DNA from: a virus
Direction: 5' to 3' (one strand)
Virus record (IMG/VR): IMGVR_UViG_3300021959_000361
Coordinates: 1-25,060 of that record
Length of the DNA: 25,060 bases
The notes below the pieces were generated by a model. It worked only from the letters and a program-made list of their open reading frames with translations, was not told the DNA's origin and did not search any database. Of the stretch, positions 1 to 18,597 are shown piece after piece. Made by a program: the position numbers and the translations under genes. How positions within the stretch are numbered: the stretch's first letter is position 1; each line of letters starts with the position of its first letter.

Positions 1-66
1 ATGCCACGCCTCGATATAGAGACAATCCCCACACAATTTTTGCGAAAACCCAAACCTTTACATTAA
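1..66 (+). other. Short open frame at window edge (possible gene remnant or end of an upstream gene)
   Basis: Frame 1 is open from the first base and stops at TAA 64-66, giving 21 residues if the ATG at base 1 is the start. The residues include D-I-E-T-I-P, which resembles the Exo I motif near the N-terminus of DnaQ-like 3'-5' exonucleases, but nothing else of such a domain follows. It could be the last codons of a gene left of the window, a broken exonuclease start, or chance. No ribosome binding site can be judged because the upstream DNA is missing. Confidence 0.15.
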
Positions 67-138
67 AACCCCAATAAATATAAAGTTATTTAATATAATC
101 AATACATATAAATTTATACCCCCTACAATAGGTATACC

Positions 139-184
139 TTTAGTCCACCGTCCCCCTATAAGGGGGGGACGTTGGAGGACTAAA
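139..184. repeat. Long interrupted palindrome (hairpin 1)
   Basis: TTTAGTCC at 139-146 is matched by GGACTAAA at 177-184. Inside, GTCCCCCT at 150-157 pairs with AGGGGGGGAC at 161-170 around an ATA loop, with two surplus G bases. The outer and inner stems are separated by a 3 x 6 base internal loop. No T-run follows, so this does not look like a simple intrinsic terminator. Confidence 0.75.
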
Positions 185-189
185 TAGGC

Positions 190-233
190 TTTAGTCGTCC
201 ACCCCTTTGGACTAAGTGGACTGGGGGACTAAA
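190..233. repeat. Second interrupted palindrome (hairpin 2)
   Basis: TTTAGTC at 190-196 pairs with GACTAAA at 227-233. The adjoining GTCCAC at 197-202 pairs with GTGGAC at 216-221, leaving TGGGG (222-226) bulged. The loop at 203-215 contains another GGACTAA. The outer arms are the same word as in hairpin 1, so the two elements are probably related by duplication or bound by the same protein. Confidence 0.7.
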
Positions 234-271
234 CTTAAAAAAAAGGCAATAAATAAAGGCGAGGTGGCAAT

Positions 272-1369
272 ATGTTAAAAAAAGAACAACTGGACTTAAT
301 ATTAGAATCCAGACGTAGTCAGGAGGACTTTAGTCCACTTAATGTGAAAACTGGACTAGAAGTAACACAGATAAAACCCCCTGATTGGTTATTACAAGAT
401 TTCATAATGGAAGGCGGATTCACCGTTCTTCACTCTGATGCTGGCGTAGGTAAAACGTTCCTGGCACTTGACTGGGCAAACACAATAGCTAATGGCTGGC
501 AATGGTTTAGCAAGGAAAGCGTAAAATCCCCTGTTTTGTACGTACTTGCTGAAGGAGTGGGATTTCTCGGTGCTCGTGTTACCGCATGGAAGAATAAAAG
601 GAACGCCACCTCGTATCCTCCCGTGCATTATTACACGAGTGCCGTCCCACTGTTTGCACCAGTAGGTAAGTTTCCTATGAGAGATCAAGTTGATTTCTTA
701 GAACTTGTGGATAGGCTTGAACCTAAACTTGTGGTATTTGATACTTTACAGAGATGTACGGTAGGTGCTAACGAAAATTTACAACAAGATATGTCACAAG
801 TCATTTCAATGATTGACACTATACGTCAAAACTATGGTGCTGCAATTTTGGCAGTTCATCATGATACAAAATCAGGTGAAGCTATGCGTGGTTCCAGCGT
901 GCTAAAAGCTAGTGCTGATACCACCATACAGTTGACCAAAAAAGATGAGATTATTGAGATGACTTGTACTAAACAAAAAGATGCAGAGCCATTTAAAGAT
1001 TGGAACTTAACATTATCCACAGAACCTAAATCAGGTTCAGCATTTTTCACTGCTTATCAGCAGGGAGTAAAAGTTAGAGATTATTCTCTCCTACGTGCAC
1101 TTGCAGATGTTATTACAGTTAGAGGTGAACAGATTACAAATAAAACATGGCGTGATGCTGCAAACCTTGACGGTGGTAGGTTTGAGAGACCTAAAGCATC
1201 TCTTGTTAGAGAAGGACTTGTGGACCAAGCTGGTGAAGGTAGAGCTAAAACTTATACCATATCAAAAGAAGGTTGGGATATCTTAGAACAACAAAATATG
1301 TTGAACTCTAGTTTTAGACCTTTACCTGATAACATTAGAGAACAACAACAGTTAATGGAGGACGAGTAA
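272..1369 (+). CDS. RepA-like hexameric replicative helicase / AAA ATPase with C-terminal winged helix
   Basis: Predicted ATPase of the RecA/DnaB superfamily, closest in style to the RepA-type (AAA_25) helicases of plasmids and phages, so a likely DNA-replication helicase in the host cytoplasm. Visible motifs are Walker A SDAGVGKT (about residues 55-62), Walker B LVVFDT (153-158), and a HHDTK motif (196-200) followed by RGSS (206-209), the pattern seen after Walker B in this family. Residues about 270-335 look like a winged helix and could bind DNA. The 365-residue length fits. The ATG is preceded by GAGGTGG. The first codons carry more of the GGACT repeats that crowd the upstream region, including GGACTTTAGTCC at 325-336, so an origin or operator may extend into the gene. 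Its stop overlaps the next start (TAATG). It could instead be a recombination ATPase of the same superfamily. Confidence 0.8.
   Translation: MLKKEQLDLILESRRSQEDFSPLNVKTGLEVTQIKPPDWLLQDFIMEGGFTVLHSDAGVGKTFLALDWANTIANGWQWFSKESVKSPVLYVLAEGVGFLGARVTAWKNKRNATSYPPVHYYTSAVPLFAPVGKFPMRDQVDFLELVDRLEPKLVVFDTLQRCTVGANENLQQDMSQVISMIDTIRQNYGAAILAVHHDTKSGEAMRGSSVLKASADTTIQLTKKDEIIEMTCTKQKDAEPFKDWNLTLSTEPKSGSAFFTAYQQGVKVRDYSLLRALADVITVRGEQITNKTWRDAANLDGGRFERPKASLVREGLVDQAGEGRAKTYTISKEGWDILEQQNMLNSSFRPLPDNIREQQQLMEDE
325..336. repeat. Palindromic copy of the GGACT motif inside the helicase gene
   Basis: GGACT-TT-AGTCC is a perfect 5-base inverted repeat with a 2-base centre. The sequence from 329 (TTTAGTCCAC) repeats ten bases seen at 139-148 in the upstream region, which links the coding repeat to the non-coding cluster. 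Confidence 0.6.
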
Positions 1370-1563: not shown

Positions 1564-3459
1564 ATGACAGCAGGTCGACCAAAAAGATCAGAAGCTGAAT
1601 TATTACAAGACAGAGCTAAAGTCCAGGCACAGATATTTGGTGCTAACAATTCAGTATTTCAGTTTGAACAAGAAGAAATATATTTGCCACCACCTCCTGC
1701 AAAAAAAGGTACTTCCCTTTGGAAAGCATGGGCTATGGAGTGTTTCTTAGAGTGCATTAGATATGGATTAAATTATTCAGATGCTTGTAAGAAAATTGGT
1801 GTAACTAGGAAATGGTGGGAAGAAAACTCTCAACGCCACCCTGAATGGGCAGAAGAAGCTAAATCAATTCGTTCAGGTGAACATGTTAAAGATAGTTCTC
1901 CTGATTTATCTAATGTTTCTTTTCCAGAGTTTTGTGAATTATATTTTGGAGTTAAGTTTGCAGAGCATCAACATAGGATTGCTGATTCATTAGAAGACCC
2001 TATGGGTAGATTAGTTTTAGTTTTAGGTCACCCTGAGTCTGGTAAGTCCACATTATCATCATTGTGGTACCCAATATATCGTATGTGTAAGAATCCTGAT
2101 ATACGAATAGCTTTAGTTACTAAATCAGGTGATAAAGCACAAGATTTGTTAAATCGTATCAAAAGATACTTAACTGACCCTCATTTGTACAATGATTGTC
2201 CTAGAAACTTAATTAGAGACTTTAATGGGTTCAAACCTCAGCGACAAGACGGATTTGGCTGGTCTAGAGACCAGATAACTATACGTCAAAGAGAGTCTGG
2301 TGAGAGAGACCCTACCATACAAGCACTATCTGTAGGTAAACAGATATACGGTGCTAGATTAGATTTGCTTATTTTAGACGACGCATTGACATTAGAGAAC
2401 CAACAAACAGATATTCGTAGGTCTAGGATTGATGAATGGTTTACCCAGGAGGCTCGTTCTAGGGCACAAAGAGGTCAAACACTGGTAAATGGTACTAGAG
2501 TTCACCCACTTGATAACTATGGACAATGGAAAGATAGCTGGGCAGACCATAAAATATTTAGATATGTAAAGATACCTGCGATATTAGATGAACATACAGA
2601 GAAAGAAAGACCTAGTTGGCATGAATATTGGTCCCTTGACGGTAAAGAGGAGTATGACCAAGCTACTGGTTCAGATGTATTTAGACCTGGACTCCGTGAT
2701 ATACGTTCTGAAATAGTAGCTAGAGACCCTATGAGGTGGAAACTTGTGTATCAACAAGAAGATGTACAACAAGTTGAATCAATATTTAGACAAGAGATGC
2801 TGGATAAAGCATTTGAATTAGGTGGATCAAGAAGTTTAGGACAGGTTTTCCCTGATGAAATATTAATACTAGGTGTTGACCCTGCTACTACAGGTAGAGC
2901 TGCGTCTGTATTATTAGCGTACAATCCAGAAACAGAGGTTAGGACAGTTGTGGATTTGTATGTAGGTCACCGATTAGGTGCGACTGGTATACGAAATAAA
3001 CTGATGTATGAGTTCTGGGAGAAATACAATGACCATAGAATTGCTTTTACTGTTATAGAAACTAACTTTGCACCAACAATCTTAGGTGATGATACTCTAA
3101 AGAATCACGCTGAGTGGAGTGGAACTAGACTTGTGGACCATAGAACTACTGGACAAGGTAAAAGACGTGGTAACAAATGGGATAAAGATTTTGGTATAGG
3201 TTCTATGGCTACATTGTTCCATAGTGGACTAGTTTGCTTCCCTTCTGCTACTGTAGAAGATAAGGCAAAACTCGCACCATTGGTAGATGATATGCTAGTA
3301 TTTCCATGGTCAAAAGTTCAAGACGCTTTAATTGCTTTTTGGGTAGCTAATGGCGAGTGTAACGGAAAAGGATTATTTCAGGTAGATATGGATAAAGTCG
3401 TAGCACGACGAAATATTCCTCCTATAATACAGGAGAGAATGTTTTTGAGGAATAGGTAA
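1564..3459 (+). CDS. Terminase, large subunit, with N-terminal helix-turn-helix segment
   Basis: Motor and nuclease that cuts concatemeric phage DNA and pumps it through the portal. The ATPase half has Walker A GHPESGKS (about residues 155-162) and Walker B LDLLILDD (266-273). The RNase H-fold nuclease half shows its acidic residues in GVDPATTG (D439), VIETN (E499) and QDALIAFW (D587). Residues about 52-100, including NYSDACKKIGVTRKWWE, look like the helix-turn-helix of small terminase subunits. I see no separate small-subunit gene in this window, so DNA recognition may be built into this protein. The full length of 631 residues is on the long side for the family. The ATG at 1564 lacks a visible ribosome binding site. 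The stop overlaps the portal start. Confidence 0.95.
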   Translation: MTAGRPKRSEAELLQDRAKVQAQIFGANNSVFQFEQEEIYLPPPPAKKGTSLWKAWAMECFLECIRYGLNYSDACKKIGVTRKWWEENSQRHPEWAEEAKSIRSGEHVKDSSPDLSNVSFPEFCELYFGVKFAEHQHRIADSLEDPMGRLVLVLGHPESGKSTLSSLWYPIYRMCKNPDIRIALVTKSGDKAQDLLNRIKRYLTDPHLYNDCPRNLIRDFNGFKPQRQDGFGWSRDQITIRQRESGERDPTIQALSVGKQIYGARLDLLILDDALTLENQQTDIRRSRIDEWFTQEARSRAQRGQTLVNGTRVHPLDNYGQWKDSWADHKIFRYVKIPAILDEHTEKERPSWHEYWSLDGKEEYDQATGSDVFRPGLRDIRSEIVARDPMRWKLVYQQEDVQQVESIFRQEMLDKAFELGGSRSLGQVFPDEILILGVDPATTGRAASVLLAYNPETEVRTVVDLYVGHRLGATGIRNKLMYEFWEKYNDHRIAFTVIETNFAPTILGDDTLKNHAEWSGTRLVDHRTTGQGKRRGNKWDKDFGIGSMATLFHSGLVCFPSATVEDKAKLAPLVDDMLVFPWSKVQDALIAFWVANGECNGKGLFQVDMDKVVARRNIPPIIQERMFLRNR

Positions 3460-5243
3460 TGTCAGATTATTACAATCTAGGTTCTAGTGTTGAATATACA
3501 AATATGGGTAAGGTCTATCGACCTAATAAATCTTTGTACGATAGACGTGATTTACTACTTGAAACCCACTCTGACTGGAAAGAAAGAATAGAAGAAATTA
3601 CAGCAATCGTTAATGGCGATTGGCACATGATTTGGAGTAACTTAACTGCTACTGCTGAGGCACCTTCTGTAGCAAACATTATTGAACTAGGTATTCATCA
3701 CTGGGCTTCATTAGGCGGAGCTGTGTTACCAGGAGTTAGAGTTCCTGTTCCTGTTAATCAAAATTTAAAAGGCGGAGAAAGGGCTGCTAGAAAAAGAGAA
3801 AGACGAGTTAAAGAACTCTGGAACAAATCAAACATCAATGAGTTAATGGCTCAATGGTGGGGTGACTATGCTGGAACTGGTTGTGCTTATGCTGGTATCT
3901 GGGCAGATTTCGATAAAGAAGAAAAAGATAGACACCCATACTTTCATAGAATTGATCCTCGATATGTTTACCCATTAAAGGATACAAAAGGAAATGTGGT
4001 CGAAGCACTAGTTGCACGTAGAGTATCTAAGGAAATACTTATAAAACAATACCCTGTTGCAAAAGGTGTTCTCGACCCAACTACAGATACCGTTGAAGAA
4101 TGGTTCTGGTATTTCCCTGACAAGATTATGCACGTAGTTGCTGATATCTCTCCAAGAGGTAGAAAAAATAATCATGCAGTTGTGTTGACAGAAGAACCAA
4201 ACCTGCTAGGAAAAGTTCCTATTGTTGAAATAGGAGTTCCTACATTTGACGGTGAGCGTAGAGGTATCTTTGACCAAACACGTCACATACTTAGAACAAT
4301 GCACCGACTTATGACACTCACTATCACTTCATCTGAAGAAGAAGTATATCCTCCTGTTTTTGAATATGATGTTATGAACCCAGATGACTTTGGACCTGGT
4401 GCTGTTATTCACGGTAGAAGTCCTGAAGCTCGTATGGAACGTATGTCATCAAGAACACATTTTGATGCTAAAGATTTAATTTCAAGATTAGCTAGCGAAG
4501 CTAGAACACAGGCTTCATTTCCTGGACAACTTTCAGGTAATCCTGGTGCAAGTATTGTATCTGCAAAAGGTATTGAAGCATCTATGGGACAGATTGATGC
4601 ACGACTTGCATTAGCTCATAAACAGTTTGAAAAATTCTTAGAGAAAGCTAGTCACATACTACTTGCTTTTGATGAGAACTATTGCGACGGTGAAAAGACA
4701 TTACACGGCGATAGTCATGATCAAAAGAAAGCAGAAATATTTGTTCCTTCAAGAGACATTGCTGGACAGTATGATGTGAACGTACGATATGGTATCGGTG
4801 CTGGTACTGACCCTTCTAATAGAGAGATGAGACTTTCTATGAACTTGCAACAAGGTATGATTTCTAGAGAAACAGCTAGAGATGAAATGGATTTCTTAGA
4901 TGACCCTGCAAGAGAAGAATTAAGAATTGTTAAACAAAAAGCTATTGATTCATTTATGAACGGTATTTATCAAAAAGCACAACAAGGCGATATTGCTGCA
5001 GCTGCTACTTTGATTGATGCTATGAAAAAAGAAGACACAGATATTAATGAACTTGTGTCTAAGGTAATTGAATCTATGCAGCAACCTGCTACACCTGAAA
5101 TGCCTGGTATGCCTGGTATGCCTGGTCCTGGAGGTTTAGGAGGAGCACCTGATTTAGGAGCTTTACTAGGTGGCGGACAACCACCACCTCGTCCTGATTT
5201 ACCTTCTTTAGGTGCATTAGGAGTAAATCTAGGAGGAGCATAA
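3459..5243 (+). CDS. Portal protein
   Basis: Predicted portal, the ring at one capsid vertex through which DNA enters and leaves and on which the tail is built. The call rests on position directly after the terminase (TAATG overlap), length (594 residues), and overall make-up: an alpha/beta N-terminal half with a conserved-looking RIDPRYVYPL segment near residue 170, followed by a long helical part (about residues 330-530). The C-terminal 50 residues are low-complexity, rich in Pro, Gly, Met and Leu, with an MPG triplet repeated, and are probably disordered. AGGAGGAG just before the stop serves the next gene. No other portal candidate exists in the window. Confidence 0.85.
   Translation: MSDYYNLGSSVEYTNMGKVYRPNKSLYDRRDLLLETHSDWKERIEEITAIVNGDWHMIWSNLTATAEAPSVANIIELGIHHWASLGGAVLPGVRVPVPVNQNLKGGERAARKRERRVKELWNKSNINELMAQWWGDYAGTGCAYAGIWADFDKEEKDRHPYFHRIDPRYVYPLKDTKGNVVEALVARRVSKEILIKQYPVAKGVLDPTTDTVEEWFWYFPDKIMHVVADISPRGRKNNHAVVLTEEPNLLGKVPIVEIGVPTFDGERRGIFDQTRHILRTMHRLMTLTITSSEEEVYPPVFEYDVMNPDDFGPGAVIHGRSPEARMERMSSRTHFDAKDLISRLASEARTQASFPGQLSGNPGASIVSAKGIEASMGQIDARLALAHKQFEKFLEKASHILLAFDENYCDGEKTLHGDSHDQKKAEIFVPSRDIAGQYDVNVRYGIGAGTDPSNREMRLSMNLQQGMISRETARDEMDFLDDPAREELRIVKQKAIDSFMNGIYQKAQQGDIAAAATLIDAMKKEDTDINELVSKVIESMQQPATPEMPGMPGMPGPGGLGGAPDLGALLGGGQPPPRPDLPSLGALGVNLGGA
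5100..5126 (+). repeat. Three tandem 9-base repeats in the portal gene
   Basis: ATGCCTGGT occurs three times in direct succession at 5100, 5109 and 5118, encoding Met-Pro-Gly three times. Copy number could vary between relatives through slippage. Confidence 0.85.
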
Positions 5244-5452: not shown

Positions 5453-5852
5453 TATGGGCGGTCTTCCTTATGGAGAAAAGACAGCAACAGAAAATATGGC
5501 TAAACAAGGAGGTGTTAGTTTAGGTTTAGCTGAAGGTAATGAACCTGGAACACCTACTCCTGTTCCTACACCTCAAAGAAGTCTTCCTACTACTAGAACA
5601 CCTAAACCATTAAAGATAGGTAGAGGTTCTGATTTCATACTTAATGGACCACCAAAAGGAAATAATCCTTTAACTGGTCTAGGACAAACTGCTCGTTTGC
5701 TTTCAGAAGATGCACAAGCATATAAAGATTCAGTTACCAAAGCCAGAGACTTAATGGAAAATAGTACTATTCCTATGGTTAGACAACAGGCAGCTGAATA
5801 TATTAAAAACGCTGCATACTTAAGGAGCATTCAGCGTGTCGAAATCGAATAA
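5436..5852 (+). CDS. Hypothetical proline-rich protein, probably virion-associated (138 aa)
   Basis: The ATG at 5436 is chosen over an in-frame TTG 24 bases earlier because GGAGAGGAG lies at the correct distance before the ATG. The first 75 residues are low in predicted structure and rich in Pro, Thr and Gly (for example PGTPTPVPTPQ near residue 42). The last 60 residues look helical, with alternating charged and hydrophobic positions. No catalytic motif is visible. It sits between portal and the giant protein, and its end overlaps the giant's GTG start by 17 bases, so it is probably made in step with it. A role as an internal or portal-attached virion protein is an inference from position. 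Confidence 0.65.
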   Translation: MAQITDMGGLPYGEKTATENMAKQGGVSLGLAEGNEPGTPTPVPTPQRSLPTTRTPKPLKIGRGSDFILNGPPKGNNPLTGLGQTARLLSEDAQAYKDSVTKARDLMENSTIPMVRQQAAEYIKNAAYLRSIQRVEIE

Positions 5853-8800
5853 CGAAGAAAACAAAATACCTAAAGAAGAAATAGAACAAGGGATTTATAT
5901 TCCTAGTGCATATTATCCTGAACAAGAAAAAGAACATAAATATAGTCCTGAAAGTCAAATCTATGACATGAAAATGTTAGGTGTCTTAGATAAAGCAAAA
6001 GACTTACCTAACTATTATCCACCTCAAGAAAATAATTTTGATTTGTCATTATCTGGATATTATAAGTCTGTTGAACAGGCATTAACTTCTGATTTAGACC
6101 AAGCTAACTTTACTTGGACAATGGGTTTAAATAAACAACAACTTGATGAGTGGGCTAATTTAGATTCTAATTTTAAACAACAAGTTATAGATTTTGCTCA
6201 TTCAAGAAAAGCAACTATAGAATTTGAAAACACTCAGAAAGATGCAGCAAAAAGAACAATACAAGGCGATATTGCAAAATTAATATTTGAAACATCAGTT
6301 ACTGGATTTGGTTATGTACCACCTGAAGAAGTAACTCAAGAAAATAAAGATAGATTAGCTTATTTACAAAATGAAGATAATTTTAGAAAAGAAGTAGAAA
6401 TTTTAACTCAGAAAAATATAGAAAATTATAATTTAGAAAATTACAATTTGTTTTCTCAATCAACAGAAAATCTTAATGTAACAAAACTAGCAGAATATAA
6501 AGAACAAGAATTAGGTTATGCAAAACACATACTTCCTATAGCAGCTGAAGTTGGTGATGTGATTTTAAGTGCTATAGGACCCAATAAAAAATTTGGTGAC
6601 GTTAAAGATACTATTAAAAACTTACCTAACAAATATGGTTACGCAGAAAATACAGCTCAGGCAATCACTAATGGAATAGGAGCAGCTGGATTAACAGCTG
6701 TGTATACAGGATTTGGCGTAGTTTCTAGAACATTAACTGCAGCAGTTAACGCCATATCACCAGGAACAATAGCTGGTTGGGTTCATAATTTAGAAGAAAA
6801 AGAAGTTAGAGATTATAAACAAGCTGCTGGAGACCCTACTTCTGAAGCGTATGCAAGATTATCTTTGTATAGCTGGGAAGAAGTAAAACAAAATGCACCA
6901 GAGTTAGCACAAACTTATTTAGAGTTTGCTGACGGTGATGAGTTTAGAGCTGCTTCAATGTACATGGCAGCACACATGAATGCTGAACCACAACAGGCTT
7001 CATTTGTGAACAGTTACATTAACACTTTAAATCAAGAAAGATTAGATAACATACAAAGAATTTTGGATAGTAAAGATACTTTAGGCGAATTGTTAGTATC
7101 TGGATTTGGTGCATACTCAAAATATGCTGTAGGTACTTTAACAACTGGTGCTACATTATTAGCTTTTGATGAAGATGCAAAAGAGTTAGCTCTTAATGGT
7201 GACTGGTCAGGTTTAAAACAAGAAATTAAAAAAGCAGACTACAGACCTTCTTATGTTTTAGGTCTTGAAAATACTCTTGCTGGTAATGCTATGGACTTAA
7301 CATTAAGTATTCTTGGTGATCCTTTGACTTGGTTATTAACTCCTGCAGTTACAAGCAGTACTTCAAAAGTATTAGGACAATTTGCAACTAAAGGTAGAGT
7401 TAATGCTTTTGTTAATCAAACTTGGTTAGGTAAACAAATTACAAAAGAAATGTTTGAAGTTGGAATTAAGTTTGAAAAAGGTGAAATAGGTATTCGTCAA
7501 TACAATGCTTTGTTTAACGGATTTGATATTGAAACGCAATTTAAATTTAGAAACATAATAAAAGAATCTGTGAAAAATGGAGATAAGACTCCACCACAAA
7601 TGTTTAAAGCTGTTCTTAATGAAGCCATGTTATCTGGTCAAGAACCATTGAAAGCATATAACACATTAGGAAGTTTGTTAATGGGTAGAACATTTAGAAA
7701 TGTTACTACTTCGCTATTTGGTAAATCAATGGGCTTACCAAAGAAACTAGATAAGTTTAAACAATTTAATACTGCATATAGTAACTTAAAACAATTATCA
7801 ACTACAAGTCCTTCTTTCTTGCAAGATGCTTCAGATTTAGTAGCAAGAATTATTGGTGCAACTGTAGATGATTTTGATGAACAATTAAAATTATACGATA
7901 ATTGGTTTCAAGCAACTTATGATGATTTTTCAAATGTTTCAACTAAAGGTACTGCAGCAAACTTAGATGAAATAAATAAAGTACAAAAACAAATTGCTGT
8001 TACTTCAGATTACATAGCTTATTTAGAAGGATTATCTGGATACAAAGTTAGAAACGTAGTTCGTGGTAATAATGTTACTGCAACTAAAACTTCTATTAAC
8101 AGAGTAGAAGCATTAGATGAAGCACAGAAAATAACTTCTCAACAGAAAACATATCAAAGTGTTATTAAAACTTTAGACAATAAAATTGATGAAACTAATA
8201 AAAGTATTAAAAGAGCTAAAGAAGTTCAAAAAGAATTAAAAAGCAGAGGAGATAAATTATCTAAATCTGAGCAAAGAACATTAGATGCTCAAGCTGATAT
8301 TATTGCTAAACAATCTGAAAAACTTGGAAAACTTAATAAACAAAAAGCTGCACAGCAAACTAAGATTGATGACTTGTCAAAAGAAATACCAGCAGGTGCT
8401 GAAATTGTCGAACAAGAAGCTGTTCTTTTTGAAGGTGTATTTAACTCAAAATCTTTATCTAATAAATTAAAAGCACTTAACGAACAAATAAAAACTGTTA
8501 AAGCAAGTGCAGCTAAAACTAAAAAAAGATTAGGTGGAGATGTTGCAAGTGCTGAAAAATATTTAGCTAAGTTACGAAATGAGTTATCAGAAATAGAATT
8601 AAAATTTAACGCTCAGAAAAAAGTTGGCAATGTTAATAAAGAATTAAAAAATGCTTTAGAAATGAAAACTAAGCAAGTTGATGCTGCAGCTAAAAAAGTA
8701 GATGAAGCTAGAGATATTGCTAGAAGTAATTCTGAAGCTGTTGAAACAGAAAGATTATTAATAAAATATCAAGATGAAATAGATCGTATTAAAGCAATTC

Positions 8801-11800
8801 AAAAAAGAAAAACAACTCCTGTGGAAACTACACCAGAAGGTCAACAAATTGTTAGATTAGACCCTGACTTAAGCACTACTGGTTTACAAGAAATATTTAA
8901 TCCAGAGACTGGAAGAATATTTAAAGAAATGTTAGACGAGGGTAAAAACCTTAGTGATGATGTGTTAAATAAATCTTATGAAAAATTATTAGAAAGAGTT
9001 AAAAAAATAGATGACAAAACTGCTGAATTGTATAGCGGTTTAATGACATCTAAAAAAAATGTTACTAAAGAGTTATTTAAGACAATTAGAAAAGAACATA
9101 AGTTAGCTAGACGAATAGCACAAATGCAAATTAGAAAATTGCAATCTTTACAAAAAGCATCACCTCAAAATGCAATTATGAATATGGTTCATGACTTATA
9201 TGCTGATTTAGCAGTTAGAGCAGGTTGGGCAAAAAATCCAAAATGGCAAGCAACTTATATTGTTAGAAATGACAAAGGTAAATTTGTTACCGCTACTCAA
9301 GCACAAATTAATGCTGGTAAAGCAATAGAAATACCAGCAGTTGTAGAGTTAGTTGGAAAAAATAAATACAAAGTTAATTGGGACATACTTAGATTTCATA
9401 TGAGATATGACTCAGATATTACTGATGTAGGTGAAGCATTACTTAAAGCAGGAAGAATAGGAGTTATAGAAACTAAACCATTAAAAGCTGAAATTGTTGG
9501 TGGAAAATTAAAGTATGGAAAAAGAACTTATCTTGGAGATCAATTTAATGAAATAAAAGAGTTTCAAGACTTTCATAATGTTTTAGATACTGCATCAAGA
9601 ATACTTAAATCACATAATCAAGTTGTTACAGCAGAACTTCCTATCAGTCCTATAGAGTTTGTGTTAGCTAATCAAGCTGCTAACGGTGGTAAAGTATCTC
9701 AATATTTAAGAGTTATAGAAGCTAATAATATATATAGAAAAGCTCAGTGGTTTAATAACTTGTGGGTGTTAGATAAAATTGCAAAACCTTCTACTGCAGT
9801 AGTTTCCAACGCAGATGAACTAATGTTTTTTAATTCATTTGGAAATTGGAAAAATTATTTTAAACAATCATATCAAAGCAAAATAGACAACATAACTTTA
9901 AGAAGATTTAACAAAGTTGTAGAAAATGGAAAATTAGCTAAAGGTAAAGTATCGCCAGAACTAATTAAAAAATATGAAGGTTATGTTCAAAAACAATTAG
10001 ACAATATACAAAAACTTCCTGGACTTCTTCAACAAAGAGGTTTATGGGCAGAATCTAAATTTAATGATTCTTATACAATTTTAACTAATGGTGATAAAGG
10101 TTATTACGATTACATGATTAGTTATGTTAATGGTTTGTTAAACGATTATGGTTTTCAATTATATTCAACTGGAAATAAAAAAGCATTTGCAAATTGGTTT
10201 GCTACTGCTGATGCAAATTATATTAGAGGTAACGCAATTCTTGATACGTTAGGAAATAATCAATTTTATTCATACACCAATATGACTGCTGATAAAGCAT
10301 GGGAAATGTATGACGGTTTAAAACATTTATATACTCTTAATTTAAAAGGTTCTTCTGCTGATGAAGTTTGGGACGCATTAAAAACTGCAGCTTCAACTAG
10401 AGGTTCTGGTGGAAATCCTAACGCTTTACCAAAAGTATCTACTATGACAAAATTACAAGTTCCTGGAATTAAAGGGAGAAGCGGTAGTGCTGTGGGTAAA
10501 AAGTTATTTGGTAAAGATCAACCAATGTTAGAAAGTTTATTTGCTGACCCTGCAAGATTTAGAACAGGATTAATTTCTAGTTCAGCACAACAAAAGAAAG
10601 AAGCACAGCTTATAAGTTTATTTGAAAGTCAAGGTAAAAAAATTATTAACAGAGCTGAGTTAGACAAAGTAAAATCACAAGCATCTGCAATAGACCCTAT
10701 TTATCAAACTGATATGTATGGTGCATCTTATTTTGATTATGATTTATTTAGACAAGGATACGTTACTGAAGATTACATAAAAGCTATAGCTAATAGAGCA
10801 GGCATAAAAGATGTAGATAATTATATGCTTAACTATCATTTAACAAGTCCATTAGGTAGAACAGCTAGACAAGTATTTCCATTTGGTAAACCTTGGTTAG
10901 ATTTCACTAAACGATATATAACTGATTTAGCAAAAAGAGCTCAAATAAGAGGATTGTATGTATCTGAAGAAAGTAATGTATTTACTCGTGGTTTATATAA
11001 CATGGCAAGTTTGTCTCCTAACTTAAGAAGGGGTGCATATATTTCTCGTGTTGCTAATGCAGATTTAAGTACTAGTGAAGTAGATTTTGAACCATTTGTT
11101 TTCTTACCTAATGGTGATAACTTTTTCTGGGTTTCTGTACCAGGATTTGGACTTATACCAGCATTAGCGTTAGGTGCAATTATGGAAACAACTGATAATG
11201 AAAATTATAAAAAAATAATAGACACTGTTTTTCCTTATACTGTGTTTGCACCAACTGATTATGATTGGAAGAAAAATCCAATAAATACATTAACTCAATT
11301 TGGAGTTGGTGGTGGAATGTTAAATTATATAGGAAAAAATGTAAGAATTGGTTCTGGTCTAACCTATAACAATTATTCAGGAAATGAAAGCAGACCATTT
11401 AGTGACTCAATAGGATTGTCTGCAATACAAAAAGACCAAAGATCAACTTTTTATCAAAACTTAGATTTAGTGTTAGCTCAAATTGGAAACGTTGATACTA
11501 GTGCAGATGCTTTAGATATGATTATTAGCTACGCTGCAAATGCTGAAATTGAGTCATTACTTAAAGAGTTTAGTGAAAGTGCTGTGCGTTATGTCATACC
11601 TGCTCGTGTAAACATTGGTGCTAATTATTTAGACACTGCTGATGACTGGATAGATTATTTTAAAGGTGCAGGTTTATTAGAAGACATACTTGACCCAGAT
11701 GTGTATGAAGCACTAGAGAAAAACCCTAATGCTGATGAACCTAAAGAACAAGCAATACAAGAATTACGAAATTATTGGTATACAAAATCTAGTGACGCTG

Positions 11801-13389
11801 AAAAAATATTATTAGGATTACAAGACCCTAGAGTATATATTTTGACACAAGCTGGTTATGAAGTAACTAGAGAAGGTGTGCAAGAATTATCTAAAGCTGA
11901 AGGTGGTAAATACACTGTAGGTCAAGTATTCAGACCATACTTAGCTAGTGACCCAGATACATTAGAACGCTACGAAGAATATGTTAGAAAAGGTTGGATT
12001 GCACCTAGAAGTGGTGAAGACATCTTAGGATATACTTTATACAAATCTTTTGATGTACGATTGCAAGCAGTTAAATTAATTAAAGAAGAAGCTGCTAATT
12101 TACTTAACGAAGGTAGATTATCACAGATACCTGGTGCTCTTGATGTCTTTGGACCATTTCAAGAACAATACACTGAAGATTACACTGAGTATTGGTCATC
12201 AAGTGCTAAACAAGGTTTTGCTTTAGTAAGCACTGATTTAACAGTTACTTCTGATACTTCAGATGAGTTTTTAAAATCTTATTACTTATTAGCAGATTTT
12301 TCTGAACCAACTCAAGAAATTATAAAATTATTAGGATTAGATACATTGTTTAAAAATGGACAAGTACAAGGAAACGCATTAAACAATGCTTTAATTCAAG
12401 AAAAACTAAATATTGTAAATAACAAATCTTATATTTTTACTGCACCTTATCAAGAAACTTATACCAACAATCCAAACATAAGTTTCACAATATGGAGACA
12501 AAATCAAAATGCCTGGATTAATGGTGGCGGTATGGACGATTATGATATGGTTGATAAATCAAGATATCAATCAATTTTAGATCAATTAGATATTTTATAT
12601 TCTATGTCTAATGATGAAGACTTTGGAGTGCAACACCCTAAATTCTTAGAATTAAGAGAAGATACTGCAAGAGCATTTATGGACTTTGCTTTTGAGTGGG
12701 GTAGCTACTATAACCCAAACGACACAAACTTACAGTCCTGGAATAATCAATGGAAAGATAACATTGAATCTTGGGCAGGACCATTAGAGTGGAGAGCACC
12801 ATTACCTCCAACTGCTAAAGATTTTGATGAACCAGATATATTTTCTTTTGATGTTAAAGGTCCAGACGGAAATATGATTGACTTTCAATTTAACGTGTTA
12901 AGTGCTGATTTACCTAGAAATGCTAGAACAATGAACGTATCACCACTAGACGTTGTTGACGGTGACACTATCACTATTGACAAATTTAAACCTGTACCTT
13001 TGAGATTAAGAGTTATTGGAATTATGGCTAATGAGTTGAATCACCCTAACGAAGATATTGCATCAGAAGCATTGAGACAACAAATATTTTTAGAAGAACT
13101 TGTAGATATTTCAAGCGATAGACTTTACTATGTTCCAGATGTTAGATTTGGAAATGATGCAGGTAAAGATAGTTATGGTAGAGAGTTAGGCTGGTTATTT
13201 GTGGAAGGTGGAATAGACGGCAATATGCCAGCAGGTACAGGACAATATATTTATTTTGAAGAACACTTTCAACCTACAGATAGATATTATCGTAGAGGTG
13301 ATGAGCTAGGACCTTTTAGTGATATAATAGTCCCAGATTACAATGAATGGGACTCAAAAACTGAAAGATATATTTTAAACGAGGATTAA
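5836..13389 (+). CDS. Giant putative DNA-ejection (internal virion) protein with C-terminal SNase-like domain
   Basis: At 2517 residues this gene takes up almost a third of the window. It starts with GTG at 5836, supported by AGGAG at 5823-5827. Regions seen: Gly/Ala-rich weakly hydrophobic stretches near residues 270-310, 415-445 and 1760-1785 that might touch membranes; a Lys/Glu-rich coiled coil at about 750-1000; a RQVFPFGKPWLDF segment near 1680, a motif style recurrent in very large phage virion proteins; and a C-terminal staphylococcal-nuclease-like domain at about 2370-2465. That domain keeps VVDGDTI (D2375, D2377), R2392, E2400 and SYGRELGW (R2449), matching SNase D19, D21, R35, E43 and R87. 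The SNase D40 position is Met (M2397). Together with the wall-cutting protein next door, this suggests a T7 gp16- or N4-type protein released into the host with the DNA. Virion location and nuclease activity are inferred. Confidence 0.75.
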   Translation: MSKSNNEENKIPKEEIEQGIYIPSAYYPEQEKEHKYSPESQIYDMKMLGVLDKAKDLPNYYPPQENNFDLSLSGYYKSVEQALTSDLDQANFTWTMGLNKQQLDEWANLDSNFKQQVIDFAHSRKATIEFENTQKDAAKRTIQGDIAKLIFETSVTGFGYVPPEEVTQENKDRLAYLQNEDNFRKEVEILTQKNIENYNLENYNLFSQSTENLNVTKLAEYKEQELGYAKHILPIAAEVGDVILSAIGPNKKFGDVKDTIKNLPNKYGYAENTAQAITNGIGAAGLTAVYTGFGVVSRTLTAAVNAISPGTIAGWVHNLEEKEVRDYKQAAGDPTSEAYARLSLYSWEEVKQNAPELAQTYLEFADGDEFRAASMYMAAHMNAEPQQASFVNSYINTLNQERLDNIQRILDSKDTLGELLVSGFGAYSKYAVGTLTTGATLLAFDEDAKELALNGDWSGLKQEIKKADYRPSYVLGLENTLAGNAMDLTLSILGDPLTWLLTPAVTSSTSKVLGQFATKGRVNAFVNQTWLGKQITKEMFEVGIKFEKGEIGIRQYNALFNGFDIETQFKFRNIIKESVKNGDKTPPQMFKAVLNEAMLSGQEPLKAYNTLGSLLMGRTFRNVTTSLFGKSMGLPKKLDKFKQFNTAYSNLKQLSTTSPSFLQDASDLVARIIGATVDDFDEQLKLYDNWFQATYDDFSNVSTKGTAANLDEINKVQKQIAVTSDYIAYLEGLSGYKVRNVVRGNNVTATKTSINRVEALDEAQKITSQQKTYQSVIKTLDNKIDETNKSIKRAKEVQKELKSRGDKLSKSEQRTLDAQADIIAKQSEKLGKLNKQKAAQQTKIDDLSKEIPAGAEIVEQEAVLFEGVFNSKSLSNKLKALNEQIKTVKASAAKTKKRLGGDVASAEKYLAKLRNELSEIELKFNAQKKVGNVNKELKNALEMKTKQVDAAAKKVDEARDIARSNSEAVETERLLIKYQDEIDRIKAIQKRKTTPVETTPEGQQIVRLDPDLSTTGLQEIFNPETGRIFKEMLDEGKNLSDDVLNKSYEKLLERVKKIDDKTAELYSGLMTSKKNVTKELFKTIRKEHKLARRIAQMQIRKLQSLQKASPQNAIMNMVHDLYADLAVRAGWAKNPKWQATYIVRNDKGKFVTATQAQINAGKAIEIPAVVELVGKNKYKVNWDILRFHMRYDSDITDVGEALLKAGRIGVIETKPLKAEIVGGKLKYGKRTYLGDQFNEIKEFQDFHNVLDTASRILKSHNQVVTAELPISPIEFVLANQAANGGKVSQYLRVIEANNIYRKAQWFNNLWVLDKIAKPSTAVVSNADELMFFNSFGNWKNYFKQSYQSKIDNITLRRFNKVVENGKLAKGKVSPELIKKYEGYVQKQLDNIQKLPGLLQQRGLWAESKFNDSYTILTNGDKGYYDYMISYVNGLLNDYGFQLYSTGNKKAFANWFATADANYIRGNAILDTLGNNQFYSYTNMTADKAWEMYDGLKHLYTLNLKGSSADEVWDALKTAASTRGSGGNPNALPKVSTMTKLQVPGIKGRSGSAVGKKLFGKDQPMLESLFADPARFRTGLISSSAQQKKEAQLISLFESQGKKIINRAELDKVKSQASAIDPIYQTDMYGASYFDYDLFRQGYVTEDYIKAIANRAGIKDVDNYMLNYHLTSPLGRTARQVFPFGKPWLDFTKRYITDLAKRAQIRGLYVSEESNVFTRGLYNMASLSPNLRRGAYISRVANADLSTSEVDFEPFVFLPNGDNFFWVSVPGFGLIPALALGAIMETTDNENYKKIIDTVFPYTVFAPTDYDWKKNPINTLTQFGVGGGMLNYIGKNVRIGSGLTYNNYSGNESRPFSDSIGLSAIQKDQRSTFYQNLDLVLAQIGNVDTSADALDMIISYAANAEIESLLKEFSESAVRYVIPARVNIGANYLDTADDWIDYFKGAGLLEDILDPDVYEALEKNPNADEPKEQAIQELRNYWYTKSSDAEKILLGLQDPRVYILTQAGYEVTREGVQELSKAEGGKYTVGQVFRPYLASDPDTLERYEEYVRKGWIAPRSGEDILGYTLYKSFDVRLQAVKLIKEEAANLLNEGRLSQIPGALDVFGPFQEQYTEDYTEYWSSSAKQGFALVSTDLTVTSDTSDEFLKSYYLLADFSEPTQEIIKLLGLDTLFKNGQVQGNALNNALIQEKLNIVNNKSYIFTAPYQETYTNNPNISFTIWRQNQNAWINGGGMDDYDMVDKSRYQSILDQLDILYSMSNDEDFGVQHPKFLELREDTARAFMDFAFEWGSYYNPNDTNLQSWNNQWKDNIESWAGPLEWRAPLPPTAKDFDEPDIFSFDVKGPDGNMIDFQFNVLSADLPRNARTMNVSPLDVVDGDTITIDKFKPVPLRLRVIGIMANELNHPNEDIASEALRQQIFLEELVDISSDRLYYVPDVRFGNDAGKDSYGRELGWLFVEGGIDGNMPAGTGQYIYFEEHFQPTDRYYRRGDELGPFSDIIVPDYNEWDSKTERYILNED

Positions 13390-15081
13390 ATGGTAGATTT
13401 AAATTACGACGTTTACGACGGACAGAGTCAAGTAGTTCCAGATGACGTACTTGTTGCGTATGCTGAACAATATTTTGCTGATTATATTGGAACTAAAGTT
13501 AACGTTGAAGGACAAGAGTATGACTTTTTGCCATATTTGTTGTCAATATTAGATACAGAATCAAATAAAAATTTATATGTTGCTTCTAATGTAGATAGCA
13601 ATAATGACGGAATATTTGAAGCATCTTTTGGTTTGTTTCAAATTAATTGGGAAAATGAAAGCGGAACCTTAGCACACGCTAACACAATCATTGACAAAAT
13701 GATTAGAGACGGTGTCATTAGTCAAGGTGAAAAAGGAAGTTATTTAAATAACATATCTCAACTTTCATCTGAACAAGTAAACACAGTAGTTCAATATATG
13801 TCAAATATTGAAGTACAGTTTGAAATTGCTTCTCAAATTTATAAAAATAGAAAAAGTAGAACAACAAATAATGGTGACTTTGAAGATTGGGGTGCAAGAT
13901 TATCTTCTAATACTGCTGCACAATACGATAAAAATTTAAATTCAGTTACAACAATTTTGTCTCAATCACCTGCAGACCGACAACAATCTCGTGCTAACTT
14001 TACAGCAAAACCTTTAACATTTAAAGAATCTTTAGCAACTAGCACATTTGATGATCCAAATGCAGTTCAAGCACCTACAGCTGGAACAGACGGCGGTGCA
14101 CTTCCTATTGATGAACAAATACAATGGATATATAATAATACTGTTGCACCGTTATTTAATCCTGCTAATGGTGTTGATGATTTCCAATTACAACAATTTA
14201 ATGACACTTATTATCAAGGTTCACTAGGTGATAAAGAATTAACTGATTTAATTAACACTGGTATTCCACCAGCTACAGGCTTAAACACTAACGCTGTGTT
14301 AGGGCAGTATGGTAGATTAGCTGGTAATTCTTCATATAGAAATCCATTTTTATTAAGTAGTCAATTAAGTGCACCTACAATAGCAAATGCAATACTTGGT
14401 GAAATATATTCTTTGTATAAAAAATCTGCAAATGCAAATGGTATTTTAGATGCAGATTATTTAGCTACAGCATTTTTAACTCCATTAATACCAAATATGT
14501 TGAGAGGTATTCAAAGTTATCTAGACCCTAATGGAAACATACAACCTGGATACACTGTTAGAGATATTGTTTTAGATGTTTCTAACTTAGCAGCAAGAGA
14601 TTGGCAGTTCGGTGTTTTACCAGATTATGCTAATCCAGACCAACAATACGATAGAAATCAACTTAAAAATACTGCAACAGGTATGGTTACACAACTATTG
14701 ATAGATGATAATCCACAGTTTGTGAATAAAGTAACAGCAGATTATGTTGATTATATGATTGCTAATCCTGGTTCAAAAACAGATTTTAATTCTTATGTAT
14801 ATAATTCAATTAAGAATACTGCAAGATATAAAATGCTTTATAAAAATAAACCTTTAGCTATGACTGAACAACAATACCTTGGTGTTTATACTAATGCTAC
14901 ACAAATGGCAAGTCCTGCTGAACAAGGAAAACTCATTACCGCACAAGCAGCAGCAGGTGGTACAGCAGAAACAGCAGGTATTGCAGCACAGTTTAGTGAA
15001 AGTGGAAGCAGAACTAATAAATTTATAAACTCAATAGAGCAATCAGCAGAAGCATTGAATAAACTGTTTAGGAAAGGTTAG
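13390..15081 (+). CDS. Putative virion-associated lysozyme / lytic transglycosylase
   Basis: The N-terminal 185 residues look like a lysozyme-fold domain that cuts peptidoglycan. Visible signs are a catalytic-type Glu in DTES (E57), an Asp/Asn-rich segment VDSNNDG (about 68-74) and SFGLFQIN (79-86), the Ser-x-Gly-x-x-Gln pattern of transglycosylases and C-type lysozymes, then FEDWGARLS (about 164-172). The remaining 380 residues have no recognised domain and end in an Ala/Gly-rich stretch. There is no signal peptide or holin nearby, and the gene abuts the giant gene (stop and ATG adjacent). A particle-borne enzyme that opens the cell wall during entry is therefore more likely than a lysis endolysin. 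Catalytic activity is predicted only from the motifs. Confidence 0.75.
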   Translation: MVDLNYDVYDGQSQVVPDDVLVAYAEQYFADYIGTKVNVEGQEYDFLPYLLSILDTESNKNLYVASNVDSNNDGIFEASFGLFQINWENESGTLAHANTIIDKMIRDGVISQGEKGSYLNNISQLSSEQVNTVVQYMSNIEVQFEIASQIYKNRKSRTTNNGDFEDWGARLSSNTAAQYDKNLNSVTTILSQSPADRQQSRANFTAKPLTFKESLATSTFDDPNAVQAPTAGTDGGALPIDEQIQWIYNNTVAPLFNPANGVDDFQLQQFNDTYYQGSLGDKELTDLINTGIPPATGLNTNAVLGQYGRLAGNSSYRNPFLLSSQLSAPTIANAILGEIYSLYKKSANANGILDADYLATAFLTPLIPNMLRGIQSYLDPNGNIQPGYTVRDIVLDVSNLAARDWQFGVLPDYANPDQQYDRNQLKNTATGMVTQLLIDDNPQFVNKVTADYVDYMIANPGSKTDFNSYVYNSIKNTARYKMLYKNKPLAMTEQQYLGVYTNATQMASPAEQGKLITAQAAAGGTAETAGIAAQFSESGSRTNKFINSIEQSAEALNKLFRKG

Positions 15082-15083
15082 TA

Positions 15084-16997
15084 ATGGTATTTAAACCTCG
15101 GTTTGATGATATAGGTTTTGGTGAAGACCCTGAAGTAGAAAAACAAATACAAGAGCAAGTTGCTAGAAAACGAGCACAAGCTGCTGGTGTAGATGATAGA
15201 CCAGCACCTGATGCTGAAGAACAAGAATATTTAGATGCTCAAGAAAAAGCTAAAAAAGAGGCTGAAGCAGCTGCTAAAAAAGCTGCTGAAGATGAAAAAA
15301 TTAGAAAAGCGTATGAAGCTAGGATAGCTGCTGAAGAAAAAGCTAGAAAAGAAGCTGAACAATATCCTAAAACTTTATATAACGATAGAGGTGAAGATGT
15401 AATTGTTAATAATAAAGACGAAGAAAGTTCTGCTAGACGTAGAGGTTTTAATTTAGATTCTAAACCTGATGCTCCACCAGCAGGTGGTGCTGGAGGAGCT
15501 GAACAACCACCTGGTGGTCCTACTTCTCAACCTAATATACCTCCACCAACATATCCTGGTTATCCAAAAGTTAAATACGATAAAGACGGACGTACCGTTA
15601 TTGTTAACAATCCTAACGAGGAAGCACAAGCTGTAGCAAAAGGTTACACTTATGATCAAGTTCCTGCACCTGCTCCTCCTACTCCTACTCCTGTAACATT
15701 AACTAAAACATTATTTAAAAGAGACCCAGACGGAACTTTACAATTTTTTGATGTAACTTATTTACAAGGTCAAGATGACACTTGGAAAGCATACTTAAAT
15801 CAGGGTTGGTTTGAACAAGACCCTGGTGTAGCAGAAGCACCATTTGAACCTGTTGAATATAATCAAGGTGGAACTTGGTATAAGATATCTGGATATCCTG
15901 GTGTCACTGGTGACACTTATGCAATAGAATATGAATTAGCTTCTGGTAGAAAGATATATTATTTAGCATCTAAATCAGAGTTAGATTCTATATTTGGTGA
16001 CGGTGCTAAACCTTCTCAAGTTACAAATGTTAACTGGGCTGATTTTAAATCTAATAATGAAAGATTTTTTGGTGGTGCAGCTGCTGAAATTATTGGAACT
16101 AATGATAACTTTGCAACAAGAGTAACTAGAGTTATTGAATCTGGTGGAACCAATGAACTACCTTTACCTGACTTTGTGAAAAATAATCAAGATTTATTAG
16201 ATATATTCTTTTTAGCTGTAGCTGAAGGTAAGTCTCAAACTTGGCTACTCAAAGAAATGAGTAAAGTACAAGCATTTAAAGATGAGTTTCCTGGCATAGA
16301 TACCATATATGCACAAACTCAAAACTGGGAAGAAGCTGTTAATACTTGGAATCAATTTAGTTCAGAAGTAGTTAAATTAAATACTAGATATGGAGAAACT
16401 GTAGATGTATCTGACTTAGTTTCAGCAGCAGTTACAAAAGGTTACACCATACAAGATATACAAAAGACTTATGAAATATTCGAGAATGCAGAAAGAAACT
16501 CTGATTTCTTAACTGCGTTTCAAGAAATTATAAATGCAGATAGTGATGTTCAGTTTGATGTAACTACACCACAAGGTATTGTTGATTTCTTTGAAGGTAA
16601 AGCACCTACAGAAATTTATGATCTCTATGAAGCAAGTTCAATACAACAACAAGCAACACGATTTGATTTAGGTGTTGATGCTGAAGGTGCAATTCAATTA
16701 GCATTGCAAACTCCTGGACAAATTACAACACAAAATATTGCACAAAGTTTACAACAAGCAGCAATTCAAATTGCAAGATTTAGAGAAGATATAGATATGG
16801 GAAGATATGGTTTAAGTGAACAAGTATTGATTAATTCAGCACTAGGAGTCAAAACACCAGGAGTTTCTGAAATACAAATACAAGATATTTTTTCAAGGAT
16901 ATATCAAGAGAACCAAGCACTACAAAATAAACAAGAACTGATATTGAATGAACAAGCATCACCATTTAGAGGAAGACGAGACATTAGGTCCGTATAA
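15084..16997 (+). CDS. Probable internal virion protein with coiled coil and three repeated small domains
   Basis: This 637-residue protein starts 2 bases after the previous stop. Residues about 40-92 are a Lys/Glu/Ala-rich coiled coil. Two related segments of about 30 residues follow at 94-123 and 160-189. Both run Y-P-K, then a D-x-G turn, then V-I-V-N-N, an acidic helix start and a final aromatic (for example YDKDGRTVIVNNPNEE). A third, more diverged copy spans about 206-243 and ends in NQGWFEQDP. Proline-rich linkers separate them. The same type of YPK...VxN...G-W module recurs in other phage structural proteins, as far as I recall. The C-terminal half is mixed alpha/beta without a known motif. 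Position as third gene of the putative ejection block suggests an internal or tail-proximal virion role. Confidence 0.65.
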   Translation: MVFKPRFDDIGFGEDPEVEKQIQEQVARKRAQAAGVDDRPAPDAEEQEYLDAQEKAKKEAEAAAKKAAEDEKIRKAYEARIAAEEKARKEAEQYPKTLYNDRGEDVIVNNKDEESSARRRGFNLDSKPDAPPAGGAGGAEQPPGGPTSQPNIPPPTYPGYPKVKYDKDGRTVIVNNPNEEAQAVAKGYTYDQVPAPAPPTPTPVTLTKTLFKRDPDGTLQFFDVTYLQGQDDTWKAYLNQGWFEQDPGVAEAPFEPVEYNQGGTWYKISGYPGVTGDTYAIEYELASGRKIYYLASKSELDSIFGDGAKPSQVTNVNWADFKSNNERFFGGAAAEIIGTNDNFATRVTRVIESGGTNELPLPDFVKNNQDLLDIFFLAVAEGKSQTWLLKEMSKVQAFKDEFPGIDTIYAQTQNWEEAVNTWNQFSSEVVKLNTRYGETVDVSDLVSAAVTKGYTIQDIQKTYEIFENAERNSDFLTAFQEIINADSDVQFDVTTPQGIVDFFEGKAPTEIYDLYEASSIQQQATRFDLGVDAEGAIQLALQTPGQITTQNIAQSLQQAAIQIARFREDIDMGRYGLSEQVLINSALGVKTPGVSEIQIQDIFSRIYQENQALQNKQELILNEQASPFRGRRDIRSV

Positions 16998-17186: not shown

Positions 17187-17684
17187 ATGACATATAATAA
17201 CGAAGGAAGTGAGGCTGATTTGTCAGAAGAATCAATCCCAAATTTAAGAGAAGCTTTAAAAGCATCTCAAGAAAAGACAAAAGAACTAGAAAATCAATTT
17301 GCTGAAGTAAGTGCTCAATTAAAGCAATTCCAAGCAAAAGATGCTTTTAGGTCTAATGGCTTTGCAGAAACTCATGCTGATCTTTTTGTGAAAGCTAATC
17401 CTGATGCAGAAATAACTCCTGAAGCAATTCAAGAGTTTGTTACTGCTTATGATTTGAAACCACAACCAAAGACTCAGGCTAGTAATCAAGGTATGAAAGA
17501 ATTGTCTGGTGTAGCACAGAAACCGTCTGACAGTATAGGTCAAATGGGGACTGCTGAAACAGCACAAATGACAAAGACAGAATACAAAAAATTACTTGCT
17601 AGTGACCCTACGGCTGCTCATGAAGCTCTGGTACAAGGTCGTGTTCAACTAAGGGAAGATAACATTCTTGGCAACAGTCGATAA
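17187..17684 (+). CDS. Scaffolding protein
   Basis: Predicted internal scaffold that guides capsid assembly and then leaves. At 165 residues it is helical, very rich in Glu, Gln, Lys and Ala, with a coiled coil at about residues 18-50 and no cysteine. A Gln/Thr/Ser-rich flexible stretch follows, then a charged C-terminal helix (about 128-158) of the kind that contacts the capsid protein. It lies immediately before the major capsid gene, the standard place. The ATG at 17187 has AAGAGGAG upstream. No protease motif is seen. Sequence alone is weak for scaffolds, so the call depends on composition and position. Confidence 0.8.
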   Translation: MTYNNEGSEADLSEESIPNLREALKASQEKTKELENQFAEVSAQLKQFQAKDAFRSNGFAETHADLFVKANPDAEITPEAIQEFVTAYDLKPQPKTQASNQGMKELSGVAQKPSDSIGQMGTAETAQMTKTEYKKLLASDPTAAHEALVQGRVQLREDNILGNSR

Positions 17685-17718: not shown

Positions 17719-18597
17719 ATGGCAGACTTTACAAGTAATCCAACGAATACCACGTCCTATAATGATACAGTTTATGCTGCAATCATTAACGACGATATTC
17801 TTGATGCTTTACAAGCAGCAGTTGTGACTCCACCACTTTTAAGTCAATTCGACCTTAGTGGACAGCCTTCCAAAGCTGTCGACATACCAATAGCTGACGC
17901 TGCTTCAGCAGCCGCTGTATCTGAAGGAAGTGAATTGAGCAACACTCAATTAACAACTTCTAAAGTTACATTGACTGCATCTGAAGTTGGTATCATGGCA
18001 ACTATCACAGACGTGTTAGATGTATCATCTATCGCCACATCAAGAGGAGCTCAAATGAGACAACTCGGAAATGCTATGGCACAAAAATTAGATGTTGACA
18101 TCTGTGCATTGTTCTCAGGTTTTTCCAACAGTGTTGGATCAACTGGAGCAGACTTAAGTCTTGCAAACGTCTTTGATGCAATCTACGGATTAGAGAGCAA
18201 CAATGCTCCAGGTCCATACGTTGCTGTGTTACACCCACGTCAAATAGCAGACCTTAGAACAGCTATTAACGCCGCTTCAGGTGCTGTATTCACTGGACAA
18301 GGAGTTAGAGCAGGCTCTAACGAACTTGGAACAGTTGAAGATGCAGGATATTTTGGAACATTTATGAACATTGATTTCTATCAATCCACAAATGTACCTA
18401 CTGCAAATACAGGAGCTGACAGAGCAGGTGCAGTATTCTCTAAAGATTACGCACTCGGTATGGTTAAAAAATGGTCCTCCAAAACAGAAATCATGCGTTG
18501 GGCTCCAATTCGTGGTTTTGTTGTCGTAGTTTCATCTATGTACGGTGTTGGAGAGATAATTGACGGTGCTGGACAAGCAGTTGTAACAGACGCTTAA
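17719..18597 (+). CDS. Major capsid protein (HK97 fold)
   Basis: Main shell protein, 292 residues, a usual size for HK97-fold capsid proteins. Supporting segments: an N-terminal arm, then ITDVLDVSSIATSRGAQMRQ (about 97-116) leading into the long spine-helix-like part, AVLHPRQIADLR (about 169-180), typical of A-domain sequences in these proteins, and a C-terminal strand with MRWAPIRGFVVVVSSMYG (about 257-274). AAAGGAGAGTG gives a strong ribosome binding site before ATG 17719. Codons ending in C (GAC, AAC, ATC, TCC) are clearly more frequent than in neighbouring genes, as expected for the most highly made virion protein. The gene follows the scaffold after 34 bases and precedes a stem-loop region. 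Confidence 0.93.
   Translation: MADFTSNPTNTTSYNDTVYAAIINDDILDALQAAVVTPPLLSQFDLSGQPSKAVDIPIADAASAAAVSEGSELSNTQLTTSKVTLTASEVGIMATITDVLDVSSIATSRGAQMRQLGNAMAQKLDVDICALFSGFSNSVGSTGADLSLANVFDAIYGLESNNAPGPYVAVLHPRQIADLRTAINAASGAVFTGQGVRAGSNELGTVEDAGYFGTFMNIDFYQSTNVPTANTGADRAGAVFSKDYALGMVKKWSSKTEIMRWAPIRGFVVVVSSMYGVGEIIDGAGQAVVTDA

Follow-up and report, generated by a model that had tools for sequence, protein, structure and literature searches.

Organization of the head gene block

The window, a virus record of 25,060 bases, carries a head gene block on the plus strand. Genes for an AAA/helicase-like protein, the terminase large subunit (TerL), the portal, a 146-residue open reading frame, a giant protein of 2517 residues, two proteins of 563 and 637 residues, a scaffold-like protein and the major capsid protein (MCP) follow one another in this order ahead of the tail genes (Table 1). 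Neither a tail-tube nor a tape-measure gene could be recognised in the window; this and the order of the genes suggest that the phage is short-tailed. TerL and the portal have their nearest annotated relatives in the Beephvirinae podophages of Streptomyces, whereas the MCP is closest to those of Pelagibacter podophages and of phage DSL-LC06 (30–38%), so that by its sequence relationships the head module appears to be a mosaic. A longer, near-identical record (the contig of locus L001) adds genes for an amidase endolysin as well as primase-like, single-strand-annealing and exonuclease proteins.

Table 1 Features of the window discussed in the text (position 1 is the first base of the window)
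Feature	Position	Strand	Basis or remark
TerL	1564..3459	+	phrog_38, E 2e-53
Portal protein	3459..5243	+	phrog_104, E 1e-8; query for finding relatives
Giant protein, 2517 aa, putative internal virion/ejection protein	5836..13389	+	GTG start; SNase-like domain C-terminal
SNase-like (OB-fold) domain, residues ~2361–2475	12916..13260	+	AlphaFold2 model of 2338–2517, Foldseek/VIA, profile match over 2373–2460
D2375-G-D2377-T = SNase D19/D21 (metal site)	12958..12969	+	both Asp invariant, 15/15
R2392 = SNase R35 (catalytic)	13009..13011	+	invariant, 15/15
I2396-M2397-A-N-E2400	13021..13035	+	Met for D40, Ala for T41, Asn for P42; E43 kept
D2445-S-Y2447-G-R2449 = SNase D83, Y85, R87 (catalytic Arg)	13168..13182	+	D and R invariant
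C-terminal tail, residues 2478–2517	13267..13386	+	pLDDT 39–51 for most; stands in place of SNase C-terminal helices
563-aa protein, lysozyme/SLT-like motif	13390..15081	+	directly after the giant's stop codon
637-aa protein, third gene of putative internal-protein block	15084..16997	+	position only
165-aa scaffold-like protein	17187..17684	+	position before capsid gene; phrog_7813 (unknown function)
MCP	17719..18597	+	phrog_544, E 1e-13; Pelagibacter podophage MCPs 30–36%

In the SLT-like 563-residue protein the pattern E-S...S-G-L-x-Q-I-N-W is invariant among relatives, and the SLT profile PF01464 matches two of seven of these, weakly (best E 0.0039). The stop codon of the giant abuts the ATG of this gene and a GAGGA Shine-Dalgarno-like sequence lies within the last codons of the giant (13381–13392), making translational coupling of the two genes likely.

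A divergent staphylococcal nuclease fold ends the giant protein

An earlier note on this DNA had placed a staphylococcal nuclease (SNase)-like domain at the end of the giant, at 12940–13389. Profile, PHROG and phmmer matches as well as the predicted fold confirm the domain, although its SNase-like part starts slightly before 12940 and already stops near 13260. Against a reference profile built from bacterial SNases found with PF00565, plus S. aureus nuclease, the window's domain scored 27.9 bits, while 3000 shuffled copies did not exceed 8.0 bits, ruling out a chance motif match. All 15 phage domains scored between 20.9 and 31.3 bits with the same profile. A phmmer search of the PDB sequences returned SNase chains only (E ~8e-4), and PHROG 452, labelled "endonuclease", matched the window's domain with an E value of 4e-8 and 14 of the 15 phage domains. 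The Pfam family PF00565 itself (curated cut-off 21 bits), however, gave no match at E <= 1, neither in the 15 domains nor in the whole records of seven relatives. Pfam found no domain in the giant protein or its C-terminus, and a profile of the phage domains yielded nothing at E <= 0.01 among the PDB sequences. Because none of the 15 domains reaches the PF00565 cut-off, we place the domain in the SNase superfamily as a divergent member rather than a canonical SNase.

The AlphaFold2 model, computed with the alignment of the 15 phage domains, reached a mean pLDDT of 75.8, with values mostly of 80–92 in the core. Foldseek retrieved 27 SNase chains from the PDB (E from 3.4e-4, probability ~1.00) ahead of the next unrelated structure at E 0.8, and VIA-align matched 108 residues to SNase with a Z score of 8.2 and an rmsd of 3.8 Å. 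The comparison thus led to the SNase OB-fold and to no other fold. The model also matches viral thermonuclease-like proteins, including a 1342-residue uncultured phage protein in BFVD. The C-terminal helices of SNase were not recognisable in the phage domain, and the predicted fold is settled for residues ~2361–2475 and not for the last ~40 residues. Taken together, residues ~2361–2475 are almost certainly homologous to SNase and share its fold.

One metal ligand is lost while the remaining active site is kept

In SNase, D21, D40 and T41 hold calcium, and R35, E43 and R87 act in catalysis. The motifs read from the window in the earlier note (DGDT, the Arg, the Glu and YGR) are all in place and align with the corresponding SNase residues. 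D19, G20, D21, R35, E43, D83 and R87 are invariant across the 15 phage domains, which are 38–98% identical, and relatives devoid of the Arg/Glu/Arg positions were not found among them. All six catalytic or metal positions fall among the 29 invariant of 88 core columns, which has a chance probability of ~9e-4.

The replacement of the ligand Asp by Met in the IMANE segment, likewise noted before, is real and extends over the whole family: residue 40 is Met in 14 of the 15 domains and Gln in the remaining one (L044). A second, partial record (L068) also carries Gln at this position. The description of a single replaced metal ligand holds for residue 40 and has to be extended by the neighbouring positions, as residue 41 is Ala in all phage domains and residue 42 is Tyr, Asn or Gln. 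We compared these positions with 54 reference SNases (S. aureus nuclease and 53 from the genomes and records searched, in which one pair of loci represents a single place retrieved twice). Residue 40 is Asp in 32 of them, Asn in 18, Ser in two, Glu in one and Trp in one; no other metal position varies as much among bacterial SNases. Ala is common at residue 41 among cellular SNases, and residue 42 is Pro in 51 of the 54. The references with Ser or Trp at residue 40 also lack other active-site residues, and in three bacterial SNases (L119, L123, L124) several active-site residues are lost together, in contrast to the phage set. Across the aligned domains, the residue-40 replacement is thus a fixed family signature, and the loss of one ligand with all other active-site residues kept is unlike decay.

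In S. aureus nuclease, mutating D40 costs far less activity than mutating E43 or R87. A full-text literature search returned no direct paper on SNase D40 mutants or on SNase in ejection proteins. Outside the active site, W2453, Q2415 and the RLYYV-D-RFG segment are invariant and specific to the family. E2406, in the loop after E43, and D2435 were considered as compensating acidic residues near the metal site; the profile and MAFFT alignments disagree here and we claim neither.

The domain is conserved and acidic

A search of IMG/VR with the domain yielded seven records and a search with the portal protein 36 loci. Among the latter, the domain ends every complete giant (2384–2535 residues), with the same gene order. 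The 2293-residue giant reading frame of locus L025 does not contain the domain and stops about ten bases before the contig end, and we take its absence to be an artefact of the contig end. No further lineages came from searching with the domain profile or the giant core, and none of 50,697 phage records was matched by the entire giant in tblastn. Between the two subclades the domain is 38–42% identical compared to 27–28% for the giants, of which about a dozen distinct ones were available, placing the domain among the best-conserved parts. Between close relatives, dN/dS in the domain is 0.10–0.26; the value for the preceding region was left out, as its ungapped alignment is possibly out of register.

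Two observations concern the records themselves. IMGVR_UViG_3300029448_000050 (55,746 bases; L026/L058 and L032/L061) holds two head gene blocks, one per subclade, with portals 88% and 69% identical to that of the window; the probable source is a pair of phage genomes, lying in tandem or fused by the assembly. Three contigs of the phage group (L072, L073, L074) are binned in metagenome-assembled genomes of Gammaproteobacteria, Pelagibacter and Flavobacteriaceae, and we do not claim a host from bins of three unrelated bacterial groups.

The net charge of the aligned stretch ranges from −5 to −10 in every phage copy and that of the ~120-residue domain from −5 to −12 in all 15, compared to −5 to +15 for the reference SNases (median ~+3 per 100 residues). 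The other proteins of the window are acidic too, less so per residue. This predicted acidity argues against a general nucleic-acid binder; it would fit a nuclease that spares the packaged genome, without proving it.

The giant as a putative internal virion protein

The giant, its SLT-like neighbour and the 637-residue protein form a block between portal and scaffold, and a comparable block is present in Beephvirinae podophages. Profile comparison of the giants with Beephvirinae gp9 (Immanuel3, WRightOn, Manuel, FlowerPower) and the large protein of phage ct2KA10 revealed no homology, and the giant core has no detectable homology to ejection proteins in the PDB. AlphaFold2 modelling of residues 1230–2000 gave a pLDDT of 43 and was uninterpretable, and the SNase-like domain is the only one recognised in the giant. 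From this absence of detected homology and the uninterpretable core model it follows that ejection is deduced from context: gene order and the transglycosylase-like neighbour suggest that the giant is probably virion-internal and delivered to the host.

A proposed nuclease with a relaxed metal site and its alternatives

The best explanation as a whole, which we give about an even chance of being correct in its main lines, is a nuclease with a relaxed metal site that is delivered with the genome. The pattern of aligned residues makes it fairly likely that the domain is catalytically competent. R35, E43 and R87 would act on phosphate and water, and D19/D21, together with the nearby D83, would bind a divalent ion in the absence of the ligand normally supplied by residue 40, giving a metal site that may be weaker or differently tuned, for example needing high calcium or magnesium. 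Tudor-SN domains with only one Ca-binding Asp are active Ca-dependent RNases (PMC5900569), and Mycoplasma MAG_5040 is an SNase preferring Mg2+ over Ca2+ (PMC3585158). The giant would sit in the virion with the product of the next gene as peptidoglycan-cutting partner and enter the host ahead of or together with the DNA, where, at an early stage of infection, the domain could cleave DNA or RNA that belongs to the host or competes with the phage. The packaged phage genome might be protected from the domain in part by the weakened metal site and by the acidity of the surface. Several points count against this explanation: Met cannot replace a carboxylate ligand well, strong negative charge generally disfavours nucleic-acid binding, the 15 domains escape PF00565 and their profile had no PDB match, C-terminal helices as in SNase were not recognised, and the giant core shows neither homology to known ejection proteins nor an interpretable model.

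The absence of the residue-40 ligand in 15 of 15 domains might instead mark the loss of metal-dependent cleavage, in which case an SNase/OB-fold module, catalytically dead, would have a structural or protein-binding role in the virion core or ejection channel. The strongly acidic surface, unlike that of nucleases, favours such a module, as do the invariant family-specific residues outside the active site, which suggest a partner surface, and the existence of degenerate SN domains in Tudor-SN (PMC5900569). A purely structural role, however, needs none of D19, D21, R35, E43, D83 and R87, which stay invariant at 38% identity beyond what chance would give, and we consider a dead module rather unlikely. 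The invariant catalytic residues together with the strong negative charge in all 15 copies also speak against the possibility, raised in the earlier note, of a domain that binds nucleic acid and does not cut it. Such a domain could clamp the entering genome; it would share the C-terminal position with the T7 gp16 C-terminal part, which binds DNA in the host cytoplasm (PMC8954989), and we regard it as very improbable. An active nuclease might also work late, in assembly, packaging or release, for instance by trimming DNA/RNA or clearing host nucleic acid, and not after ejection. The position of the gene in a structural operon near portal and terminase, with a virion location that is itself putative, speaks for such a role; fusion to a ~2,400-residue protein in the portal–scaffold interval, however, is more in keeping with an internal protein than with a late enzyme acting on its own, and known phage SNases (SPbeta YokF, S-RIM2 endonuclease) are separate small genes. 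We therefore hold a late function to be improbable.

Extending the delivered nuclease with its relaxed metal site, we propose as a speculative and doubtful possibility that a marine podophage lineage packs a nuclease into the virion, where it forms the C-terminal arm of the giant and is delivered by ejection. Residue-40 loss and the acidic surface would make it genome-safe, and it would be active under host conditions only, a built-in and metal-gated enzyme serving takeover or exclusion as soon as infection begins.

Comparison with known systems

With S. aureus Nuc (thermonuclease, PF00565) the phage domain shares the OB-fold, D19, D21, R35, E43, D83 and R87, whereas it carries Met/Gln for D40, Ala for T41 and Tyr/Asn/Gln for P42, has the extra RLYYV-D-RFG segment, shows no recognisable C-terminal helices and stays below Pfam detection. 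The phage domains are acidic and fused to a giant protein, while cellular SNases are mostly basic. Tudor-SN (SND1), too, is a large protein with built-in SNase domains that keep only part of the Ca ligands, and two SND1 domains are still active RNases (PMC5900569). Unlike the phage protein, it is eukaryotic, with tandem SN repeats and a Tudor domain, and most of its catalytic residues are degenerate, whereas in the phage domains residue 40 alone has changed among the active-site residues tested.

Podovirus ejection proteins (T7 gp14/15/16; the Beephvirinae gp9 region) resemble the giant as large proteins in the head gene block beside a peptidoglycan-hydrolase-like gene, yet have no detectable sequence homology to it; a review of ejection proteins does not mention nucleases (PMC8954989). 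Phage polyvalent proteins (Iyer et al. 2017, PMC5512222) are giant injected proteins with enzymatic domains, nucleases included, whereas the giant has one recognisable domain and others may be too divergent; the authors of that work do not use the term "staphylococcal nuclease". PHROG 8809, a phage family of 2317 positions and unknown function, is a large protein with an SNase region at ~1095–1250, placed mid-protein and not C-terminal, and similarity to the giant was not found elsewhere in it. After this region, PHROG 8809 has a second one (~1265–1411) matching parts of larger cellular proteins.

Phage SNases, including one in at least one other large phage protein family, are thus known; new is the combination of the fusion ending a putative internal virion protein with the fixed residue-40 loss. 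This group of uncultured marine phages may bring their own unusual DNA- or RNA-cutting domain into the host. Enzymes delivered with phage DNA, and how the packaged genome escapes cutting, are poorly known beyond a few model phages. The fixed loss of one SNase metal ligand with the other active-site residues kept is a natural experiment on the ligands that a metallonuclease needs, and the family is easy to test, as a domain of ~180 residues can be expressed alone.

Small separate SNase genes are common in phages. PHROG 452 endonucleases (e.g. of Synechococcus phage S-RIM2) and SPbeta YokF belong to the same phage-encoded SNase family, and are small stand-alone proteins, unlike the giant structural fusion described here. 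Phage ct2KA10 (OX376640.1), whose TerL and portal are related to those of the window, encodes a separate small SNase gene (L108; bases 8–280, minus strand) outside its large protein, with Asn at residue 40 (QINTPE).
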